Of a stretch of 34,318 nt of DNA, positions 6,457 to 27,977 are shown in pieces (the stretch's first letter is position 1; each line of letters starts with the position of its first letter). The notes under the pieces were generated by a model that was given only the letters and a program-made list of their open reading frames with translations, was not told the origin of the DNA and did no database searches. The position numbers were made by a program, and so were the translations under genes. Origin of the DNA: Deltaproteobacteria bacterium. Its GTDB lineage: Bacteria; Chloroflexota; Dehalococcoidia; Dehalococcoidales; BS750m-G39. The stretch is from the NCBI GenBank assembly GCA_030603275.1, contig JAUVYB010000014.1, forward strand, positions 1 to 34,318, in the 5' to 3' direction.

Positions 6457-6497
6457 TATAAACGGGGTATTGCCAGTAATAGCGGGAGGTGACTGAG

Positions 6498-7778
6498 GTG
6501 AATAAGGTACTTCTGTATGCAGTAAGTATATTAATGGTGACATTGATGCTGGGCCTGGCGGCTTGCCCCAATGCAGCCGCCGGTGAGTTGATAAAATCGG
6601 ATAAGCCGCGAGAGACGGCGCCGGAAGTTAGCGCTTCCGACCTGGCGACCCTGGTCGATGGCAACAGCGCTTTCGCCTTTAACCTGTATCAGGAGCTCAG
6701 AGAAAAAGAGGGCAACCTCTTCTACTCCTCCTACAGCATTTCTCTGGCCTTAGCCATGACCTATGCCGGCGCCCGCAGCGAAACCGAAGAGCAGATGGAT
6801 GATGCCCTCTGCTTTATCCTGCCTCAGAACCAGCTGCACTCGGCATTTAACGCATTGGCCCTAGAGCTGGATAGCCGCGGCGAGGGCGCCCAGGGCAAGG
6901 ACGGCGAGGGCTTCCGGCTAAACATCGTCAATGCCATCTGGGGGCAGCGGGACTATGCGTTCCTAACCGAGTTCCTCGACCTGCTGGCGGTAAACTATGG
7001 CACCGGGCTCAGAGTCCTTGATTTTATGGGCGCGCCGGAAGAGTCCCGCGTAACCATCAACGACTGGGTCAGCGAGCAGACGGAAGACCGGATCGAGGAC
7101 CTGATTCCGCAGGGCCTGATTAATCCAGCGACCCGCCTCGTCCTGACCAACGCCATCTACTTCAACGCCGCCTGGGCCTATCCCTTCGATGAGGATTTTA
7201 CTAGGGACGGGGTATTTTACCTGCCCGACGGAGGCGAGGTGACAGTACCGATGATGAGGCAAACGGAGTCGTTCGGCTATGCCGAAGGCGATGGCTATCA
7301 GGCGGTAGAACTGCAATATGACGGCGGCGAATTCTCTATGGTAATCTTGATACCCGCATCTGGCCAGTTCGAGACATTCGAAGAGGCGCTGGACGCCCCG
7401 CAGGTGGAGGGAATCATCGGAAGCCTGGGGTACAAGCAGGTTAGCCTGACCATGCCGAAATTCGAATTCGATTCTAGCTTCAGCCTGAGAGAGGCTCTGG
7501 CGGAAATGGGGGTGCCCGTTGCTTTTTCCGGGGGCGCCGACTTTTCCGGGATGACGGGTAACCGCGACCTTTTTATAGCCGATGTGGTACACAAGGCCTT
7601 TGTCTCCGTCGATGAAGCCGGCACCGAGTCAGCGGCAGCCACCGCGGTAGTTATGGAACTGACAGCAATGCCAGAAACGGTAGAGGTTACCATTGACCGA
7701 CCGTTTATCTTCCTCATCCGTGACATTGAGACCGGGGCGATACTGTTCGTGGGGCGTACTCTAAATCCGAGTATATAA
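6498..7778 (+). CDS. Serpin (serine protease inhibitor), lipoprotein
   Basis: About 426 residues with the full serpin fold signature: NLFYSSYSISLALAMTYAGA near residue 70, LTNAIYFNAAW, and VVHKAFVSVDEAGTESAAAT near 365-380. The hinge of the reactive-centre loop, EAGTESAAATAVV, keeps the small residues of inhibitory serpins, so it should act as a suicide protease inhibitor. Counting from the hinge puts P1 near Thr in the run MELTAMPE, only approximately. The N-terminus is a lipoprotein signal with lipobox LAAC, so the protein is probably anchored outside the membrane. GTG at 6498 was chosen because GGAGGT ends 7 nt before it; an in-frame GTG at 6489 overlaps that SD. Serpins are rare and patchy in bacteria, and the flanking tRNA fragments support acquisition by transfer. 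Confidence 0.93.
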   Translation: MNKVLLYAVSILMVTLMLGLAACPNAAAGELIKSDKPRETAPEVSASDLATLVDGNSAFAFNLYQELREKEGNLFYSSYSISLALAMTYAGARSETEEQMDDALCFILPQNQLHSAFNALALELDSRGEGAQGKDGEGFRLNIVNAIWGQRDYAFLTEFLDLLAVNYGTGLRVLDFMGAPEESRVTINDWVSEQTEDRIEDLIPQGLINPATRLVLTNAIYFNAAWAYPFDEDFTRDGVFYLPDGGEVTVPMMRQTESFGYAEGDGYQAVELQYDGGEFSMVILIPASGQFETFEEALDAPQVEGIIGSLGYKQVSLTMPKFEFDSSFSLREALAEMGVPVAFSGGADFSGMTGNRDLFIADVVHKAFVSVDEAGTESAAATAVVMELTAMPETVEVTIDRPFIFLIRDIETGAILFVGRTLNPSI

Positions 7779-7815
7779 CCCACCTGACCGGTGTGGGGTT
7801 CACTCTAACTACTAC

Positions 7816-7845
7816 GCGAAGGTCGTCGGTTCAAATCCAAGCTCT
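7816..7845 (+). repeat. Second, degraded tRNA 3'-end fragment
   Basis: Positions 7819-7840 match 20 of 22 bases of the first tRNA fragment at 6337-6358, in the same orientation, covering the variable loop and T arm. The T stem is damaged (GTCGG facing CCAAG) and the acceptor end has decayed. Together the two copies form a direct repeat enclosing the terminator and the serpin gene. Confidence 0.65.
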
Positions 7846-8093
7846 GAGGCCGCAAATAAATTAGCACGTAATAAGCCAGACTGTTACGCTATACACAAAA
7901 CATCGAATTATTACTTCTGACTGCCTTATCTACTGGATTAACGGGATACTATATCTATAGTCTCCTGAGTTTGTACACTTGCAAAGCTCTTCTTTCTCCA
8001 AGAAGAGGTCGTGTAACGCTCTGGCTATGCTAGGCTTCTTTTTAGTTTCCACCGTGGCTGAGTGGTCTGCCTTTTCAGCTTATCTTCCTATTT
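7846..8093. other. AT-rich spacer with one hairpin
   Basis: No gene recognised. A perfect 8-bp hairpin (CTCTTCTT at 7987-7994 and AAGAAGAG at 8000-8007) could be a weak end signal for the minus-strand gene ending at 8094, though it has no T-tract. A short stretch at 8054-8066 (TGGCTGAGTGGTC) resembles the D arm of tRNA-Ser but has no other tRNA parts around it. Confidence 0.4.
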
Positions 8094-8513
8094 TTAATCG
8101 CCATTTCCTTGCTCATCTTCAGCTATATAGCCCTGAAGGGTTATCCCCCTATCCTTAAAAAAGCGGTATAAGATTGTGTCGATAAAGTCCTCAAAGAGTA
8201 TATCGGAAGGCCAATTCCATTCCTCAATAGCAACCTGTCTCGCTATCGCCATTATTGGCGTAAAAGGACAGGTAATGACATGCGACTGAAATCTGATTAC
8301 TTGAGCAGTGTTAATATCACTAGTAGCCGGTAGGGACTGTCCTTTGCCTTGATTACCCTCCTTTTCTTCGGCTCCCGTTGTCCCGCCTGACTTCTTCCAC
8401 CCTTGGTAGTAGTTGTAGGTGGTTTTGGGCTTCAAGCCAAGGTTCTTTACCTCTTGGTCCCCTGGTCTTTTACCCTGGTCGAACAATGCGAATGCTTGGT
8501 CCTTCTTGCTCAT
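8094..8513 (-). CDS. Small HTH-like protein of unknown function
   Basis: A 139-residue protein that I do not recognise as a named family. The first 45 residues (ALFDQGKRPGDQEVKNLG followed by LKPKTTYNYYQGWKK) look like a helix-turn-helix of the type seen in small regulators and phage proteins. A Gly/Glu/Lys-rich linker follows, then a C-terminal domain with aromatic and acidic residues (WNWPSDILFEDFIDTILYRFF). A good SD (GGAG, 8 nt before ATG) argues that the gene is real. Its upstream region carries about twelve CTACC-type sites in both orientations, a likely place for this or another protein to bind. It stands alone between two tRNA-derived scars, in sequence of lower G+C, and is probably a remnant of a mobile element (inference). 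Confidence 0.6.
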   Translation of the reverse strand: MSKKDQAFALFDQGKRPGDQEVKNLGLKPKTTYNYYQGWKKSGGTTGAEEKEGNQGKGQSLPATSDINTAQVIRFQSHVITCPFTPIMAIARQVAIEEWNWPSDILFEDFIDTILYRFFKDRGITLQGYIAEDEQGNGD

Positions 8514-8582
8514 AAAACAGCTCCAAAACTTTTTTTAGCACATGCCAAGATGTTTCTTATCTTGACGCCTCTTACTCATTGA

Positions 8583-8795
8583 TTACCTCGCAGCTACCTT
8601 GGTTCTCTACCCTAGAACTACCTCACATCAGATACACCTCCTACCCTGGATTACTACCTCAATGGCTACCCCAAATTAGCTAACTATAAGGTAGTGAATG
8701 GTAGCCATCTTAACTACCTCAGTTGGTCTTCAATTGAATCCTGATAGAATGACCGATAGCTACATTCTTCACGCCTACCAGTTCATTGTGGTAGG
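8583..8795. promoter_or_regulatory. Cluster of CTACC-type sites (possible iterons or operator array)
   Basis: YTACC(T/C/A) occurs at 8583, 8594, 8607, 8618, 8641, 8654, 8666 and 8714, reversed at 8688 and 8699, and as a perfect dyad CCTACCA (8774-8780) / TGGTAGG (8789-8795). Spacing in the left block is 11, 13, 11, 23, 13 and 12 bp, close to one or two helical turns. The cluster lies directly upstream of the HTH-like gene. Confidence 0.6.
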
Positions 8796-8851
8796 GGTGT
8801 AACTGCCAATTCGACGAAGGCTTCAATGATTTTGTGCCGAAAAGTAATGTT

Positions 8852-8896
8852 CGGTAGGCCGTACAGGTCTCGAACCTGTGCCCCCCTGATTAAAAG
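8852..8896 (-). repeat. 3' half of tRNA-Lys (anticodon TTT)
   Basis: Read on the minus strand, 8896 to 8852 runs from the anticodon loop CTTTTAA through the 3' anticodon strand, a perfect T stem-loop ACAGG-TTCGAGA-CCTGT, the acceptor strand ACGGCCT and A-CC. The 5' half (acceptor AGGCCGT, D arm, 5' anticodon strand) is missing; the bases before the loop (TCTAT) do not pair with TCAGG. Similarity begins at the anticodon loop, a classic crossover point for tRNA-targeting integrases. Not a functional tRNA. The flanks 8514-8582 and 8897-9115 hold no gene that I recognise. Confidence 0.75.
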
Positions 8897-9045
8897 ATAG
8901 ATGCTTTCTTAAATCTGCCGGATCAGCACTCTCCATTGAATTCGTACACTAAACCTCAACAAGGTCCGCGATAGATTACTCCTGTCCCGGGTGGATGTCC
9001 AACTCCGTCAGAAATGGTATAACATGAGTCGGATTACCTGTTCCG

Positions 9046-9075
9046 CAGGGGGATACAGGGGGTGAGGCTGATGAA
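9046..9075 (+). repeat. Truncated copy of the intergenic repeat tail
   Basis: A GGGGGATACAGGGGGTGAGG run matches the tail of the repeat upstream of rsfS (18600-18620). In both places a TATAAT box follows shortly before a gene. Only the tail module is present here. Confidence 0.45.
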
Positions 9076-9115
9076 ACCTAGAAACACTAAAGTAGACGGG
9101 GAATTGCCTATAGGT

Positions 9116-9121
9116 TATAAT
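9116..9121 (+). promoter_or_regulatory. -10 box for rsmI
   Basis: TATAAT ends 25 nt before the rsmI ATG, predicting a short leader that still contains the SD GGGGAGA. No good -35 was found. Confidence 0.5.
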
Positions 9122-9146
9122 AGCAAAACCGGGGAGAGAACAGACC

Positions 9147-27708: not shown

Positions 27709-27977
27709 GAGGTCGTGCTAGACGGGGAGCCAGCGGTGCCCTGAACTCGCAATCCGCTATAGCGGGGTTGAATTCCTGCTTGAGGCCTTTGTCTGGTGGG
27801 ACTACCCGGGTTAAGTGGTGTTGAAGGCCGGGTCCTGCGCGGCAGAGCTCTATGAATCCCGTCAGATCTGAGAGGAAGCAGCGGTAAATAGAAGCCCTGG
27901 GTGCCGCAGGGTTACCTGGCTGGAGCCGGCTGGCTTCGGGCAAGCTGCGGGGCGGGGTCGAGGGTGGGTGCACGGCC
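27709..27977 (+). ncRNA. ffs: Signal recognition particle RNA, large bacterial type with Alu domain
   Basis: The region reads as a roughly 265-nt SRP RNA similar in layout to Bacillus scRNA. The 5' Alu part has GTGCTAGACGGGGAG, GCGGTGCCCTG and CGCAATCCGCTATAGC. GGGTCCTGCGC pairs with GTGCCGCAGGG. The S domain (27861-27882) has GTCAG and GGAAGCAGC around a GAGA tetraloop. The 3' end carries GGTGCACGG as in the Bacillus RNA. It binds Ffh for membrane targeting of nascent proteins. No T-tract terminator follows; the RNA end abuts the rsmA coding region, so processing from a longer transcript is possible. Confidence 0.92.

Follow-up and report, generated by a model that had tools for sequence, protein, structure and literature searches.

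The analysed window comprises 34,318 nt and represents contig 33 of the host genome, which belongs to the Dehalococcoidia (G000, 1.52 Mb in 50 contigs). It contains the gene for a small protein, designated P0001, which is preceded by a leader and a dense array of CTACC sites (Table 1). Genes neighbouring this locus are those for a serpin, rsmI, metG, and a radical SAM protein. The serpin gene, located at positions 6489-7778 beside the array region, specifies a bacterial serpin (Pfam E 1e-112). A large bacterial SRP RNA was also detected in the window at positions 27713-27975 (Rfam RF01854, 176 bits).

Table 1. Features of the P0001 locus (positions in the window; a dot denotes features without a strand)
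Feature	Position	Strand	Remarks
P0001, 139-aa protein	8094..8513	-	predicted HTH, residues 1-42; short C-terminal domain, residues about 70-130
Leader, from array to start codon	8514..8582	-	with GGAG, Shine-Dalgarno-like
Array	8583..8795	.	11 CTACC, one TTACC; sites in both orientations, register of 12 bp
TTACC site	8583		
CTACC sites	8594, 8607, 8618, 8641, 8654, 8666, 8714, 8775	+	
CTACC sites	8690, 8700, 8790	-	
Array section aligning with the unit conserved in G005 and G038	8690..8730	+	GGTAGT-N17-ACTACC
Dyad at the array's outer end	8774-8795	.	CCTACCA-N8-TGGTAGG
Possible tRNA remnant	8863..8927	-	sub-threshold, 17.1 bits, E 2.5

A recount confirmed what a preliminary description of this DNA had reported for the array: at least eleven CTACC-type sites and one TTACC, steps of 11, 13, 11, 23, 13, and 12 bp in the left block, and the dyad. 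The proposed clustering beyond chance was also found. In 2000 dinucleotide-preserving shuffles of positions 7780-9146, the densest CTACC cluster per 213 bp contained five sites (mean 1.8) compared to 11 in the array, and any pentamer reached ten in only one out of 500 shuffles. Certain G+C-rich pentamers attain 11 to 12 copies elsewhere in the window, which is probably an effect of G runs or codons. Searching the whole genome for CTACC-N5-9-CTACC yielded 25 matches versus 26 for the reversed control; five of the 25 lie within the array, and a second cluster was not detected anywhere in the genome. The G+C content of the intergenic region is 45% compared to 55% for the window.

The sites had been considered helically phased, and in this respect the description had to be revised. 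For sites on the same strand, the period is 12.0 bp (R 0.95, p about 5e-4), with no signal at 10.5 bp (R 0.17), so that successive sites turn by about 50 degrees about the helix. Same-strand steps of 12-13 bp were also obtained when arrays were pooled. A lag-autocorrelation score did not distinguish the arrays from controls. Repeats coding for a repeated peptide were ruled out, since the majority of the steps are not divisible by three.

According to an AlphaFold model, the N-terminus of P0001 is predicted with good support to form a three-helix (trihelical) HTH, and the short C-terminal domain to consist of two helices, the latter with moderate confidence only. Foldseek searches against the PDB revealed no significant fold match for this model or for a second one, and P0001 had no match in Pfam, NCBIfam, PHROGs, PADLOC, or plasmid records.

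That the gene lies between tRNA scars, as had been suggested, was borne out weakly at best. No tRNA was found in the window by ARAGORN or by Rfam at gathering score. The sub-threshold piece listed in Table 1 and a 22-nt match of 91% to the locus of a tRNA of the genome could represent such remnants. Upstream of rsmI, guaB-like genes, as judged from sequence, or an integrase are present in other genera, and this region is a possible insertion hotspot. In G003 (L092:502-1440), a tyrosine-recombinase-like gene is found directly 5' of rsmI, the place of the array in the window.

A search for homologues of P0001 over 200 genomes produced matches in five, its own genome included. No match was obtained in two congeners, and the distribution is therefore patchy. 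A full-length homologue with 53% identity is encoded in G005 (DAOWJM010000106.1), a related family member from another genus, in a chromosomal neighbourhood different from that of P0001. Codon positions 1 and 2 are kept at 65% and position 3 at 40% between the two genes; as judged from this comparison, the first two positions are under constraint. The expectation that an array would be found beside homologues of P0001 held for G005, where at least 12 ACTACC sites are located upstream and the array reaches the start codon. In G186 (L023:1483-1893), where a C-terminal domain of the P0001 type follows an N-terminus resembling a C2H2 zinc finger in place of the HTH, no array is present beside the gene. 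A sub-threshold tRNA-like piece was noted near the G186 gene. A promoter above chance was not predicted in or near either of the upstream arrays of G000 and G005.

The HTH subfamily, characterised by the pattern GKRPxDPEVKALG...YxYYQxWKK, also occurs in a second architecture. In G248, G482, and G859, it constitutes the C-terminus of an otherwise unrelated 514-aa protein, the only branch of these HTH proteins with long helices. Arrays of ACTATGATT with steps of 12-13 bp are located directly past the stop codon and align with each other; in G248 and G859, the array sits between convergent gene ends. The reading frame is split in G482. With dN/dS values of 0.21 and 0.26, the HTH-bearing 514-aa protein is under purifying selection. 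Residues of the recognition helix vary with the repeated word, KPKTTYNY or KSKSTYNY occurring with CTACC and KPN(T/S)AYRY with CTATGATT. A relative of the 514-aa protein in G321 (34% identity over 450 aa) lacks both the HTH and the array; like the G186 gene, it is a loss control in favour of an array tied to the HTH. The assignment of the array to the HTH gene, made previously for the window, is therefore supported by the G005 homologue and by all intact members of the subfamily found: each has an array, which touches the HTH-coding end of the gene in both architectures, the independent cases being few (two branches, five genes, two fragments). The wider family of P0001 comprises HTH_23-type, homeodomain-like HTH proteins found in integrative elements of Dehalococcoidia; several of these more distant relatives adjoin tyrosine recombinases and, unlike P0001, they are not accompanied by an array of this kind.

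When 156 genomes of the order were scanned for three phased CTACC sites, arrays other than simple repeats were found in G000, G005, and G038 only; the remaining CTACC triplets, simple repeats excepted, were not arrays. The G038 array is 80% identical to that of G005 over 71 bp. The array copies share the unit GGTAGT-N17-ACTACC with an unchanged 17-bp spacer, and one copy of the unit in G005 includes AATCATAGT, the word of the 514-aa branch. Clustering of sites without the gene had been named as an argument against a connection of the two, and it was seen this one time among the 156 genomes: a recognisable HTH gene is present neither beside the G038 array nor elsewhere in this genome at E 0.001, the genome being only 93% complete. 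The G038 array is flanked by a comEA-like gene and an integrative element with genes for an XRE regulator, a Lin1244/DnaD initiator, a resolvase, a tyrosine recombinase, and defence-type proteins, among them a DISARM-like (DrmMII-like) methylase. The integrase gene is about 3 kb from the array, and clear flanking repeats were not apparent. This element, located on contig 24 (L163:1372-17968), lies next to comEA/comEC-like genes. From inspection of the translations only, a 158-aa protein of this element resembles the 152-aa protein encoded beside the 514-aa relative in G321, which is accompanied by integrase fragments and a helicase-like gene for replication. The earlier proposal, in which the window array may have served a decayed element as its control or replication region, is thus plausible, since the homologous G038 array borders an integrative element that encodes replication and recombination functions. 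No true relatives were obtained from viral contigs, which were searched with three protein alignments and two DNA patterns, or from records of phages and plasmids; one viral ACTATGATT array (L139) was set aside as an exact simple repeat.

Because the array tracks the HTH and abuts the HTH-coding end, binding of the HTH to the array is the simplest reading. We infer, with a probability of about 0.6, that the array serves the neighbouring HTH protein as its cognate binding platform and has survived as a remnant of a family of Dehalococcoidia integrative elements. The trihelical HTH would recognise a short word centred on CTA, CTACC in the window and CTATGATT in the other branch. With copies spaced by about 12 bp, protomers would be placed in tandem and could cooperate via the other parts of the protein to build up a nucleoprotein filament over the array. 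Self-association of P0001 is only presumed, as the C-terminal model is of moderate confidence and without a fold match. Bound upstream of the gene, as in G000 and G005, the protein may repress or set its own transcription. A structural role in cis for the element could be added, in maintenance or partition, copy control, or anchoring, as for KfrA and centromere-binding proteins. The location of the array downstream, between convergent genes, in the 514-aa branch implies that the conserved function is probably not transcriptional alone. Since a partner ATPase, a replication gene, or an integrase was not found near P0001, a maintenance role at this locus would be vestigial.

Several other explanations were weighed against this platform. 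If the array were a plain autoregulatory operator, at which P0001 cooperatively represses its own promoter and nothing more, its position across the upstream region in G000 and up to the start codon in G005 would be accounted for, and its occurrence as the sole cluster of the genome would fit as well. This is rather unlikely, because the downstream arrays of G248, G482, and G859 are not upstream operators and 11-12 sites over 200-280 bp exceed the needs of a simple operator. An iteron origin of a decayed integrative element, with the initiator lost since and the HTH protein as an accessory, would agree with G038, where the Lin1244/DnaD initiator gene is about 1 kb from the array and recombinases follow beyond. 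Only the G038 element has such a gene, however; none lies beside the window array or near any HTH-linked array, and the array tracks the HTH rather than replication genes, which renders this origin distinctly improbable.

The mixed orientation of the sites, the tyrosine recombinase of the G038 element, and the recombinases beside several HTH genes of the wider family would be in line with arm-type binding sites in the attachment region of a tyrosine recombinase. Yet this is very improbable, considering that an integrase is absent near the arrays of G000, G005, G248, and G859 and that att-like direct repeats were not found around the arrays of G000 or G038. A structured RNA leader or a single-stranded hairpin region in place of a protein-bound double-stranded array is hardly credible. 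The G005 array does fold far better than its shuffles (z -6.9) and that of G000 mildly so (z -2.3), but such folds follow from sites in both orientations. The G248 array, in which all sites point one way, is for this reason unstructured (z +0.9), and no Rfam family was detected at gathering score.

Among known systems, KfrA of plasmid RA3 is the best functional parallel. It possesses an N-terminal HTH and a self-associating remainder with a long alpha-helical tail of about 300 residues, acts as an autorepressor, and supports plasmid maintenance; its operator comprises five short repeats of 9 bp, which occur in both orientations at the promoter of its own gene (PMC7783346). P0001 has a predicted HTH at the N-terminus and repeats upstream of its gene, a position that suggests autoregulation. 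The array is longer, however, with 12-bp steps, and is downstream of the gene in the 514-aa branch; P0001 has a short two-helix C-terminal domain in place of a long alpha-helical coiled-coil tail, and sequence homology was not found. TubR/tubC and ParR/parC centromeres are the second parallel. There, a small DNA-binding protein binds along a direct-repeat array upstream of its gene and represses its own synthesis (PMC5016525). Multiple direct repeats are similarly located upstream in G000 and G005, and downstream in G248 and G859. A gene for a partner cytomotive NTPase (TubZ/ParM) was not recognised near the window array or at L030 and L160-L163, and the predicted trihelical HTH lacks a wing, in contrast to the winged HTH or RHH of these systems. 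As neither homology nor partner genes were found, the locus is assigned to neither system. It is best read as KfrA-like, with an HTH protein that would coat its own tandem sites for autoregulation, element maintenance, or both.

Tentatively, and with the odds rather against it, HTH segment and site array could be a portable 'self-addressing' module, both moving as one DNA unit. Such a module would have been joined to unrelated proteins, at the N-terminus to a short regulator and at the C-terminus to a helical 514-aa protein, and the array, always on the HTH side, would direct the fusion protein to its own gene or element. If HTH and array indeed move together between proteins, this would be an unusual DNA-binding domain carrying its address. 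The previously undescribed HTH subfamily gains a predicted DNA target, for which nature offers two specificity classes (CTACC and CTATGATT), and the finding points to a part of the apparatus by which mobile elements of Dehalococcoidia are maintained or controlled.

Repeats of CTA words also directly precede fragments of the HTH in G389 and G495. In G495 (L100:1400-1566), near-perfect 12-bp tandem repeats of TTTACTATATCT lead straight into the HTH-coding fragment, which may show how such arrays arise.
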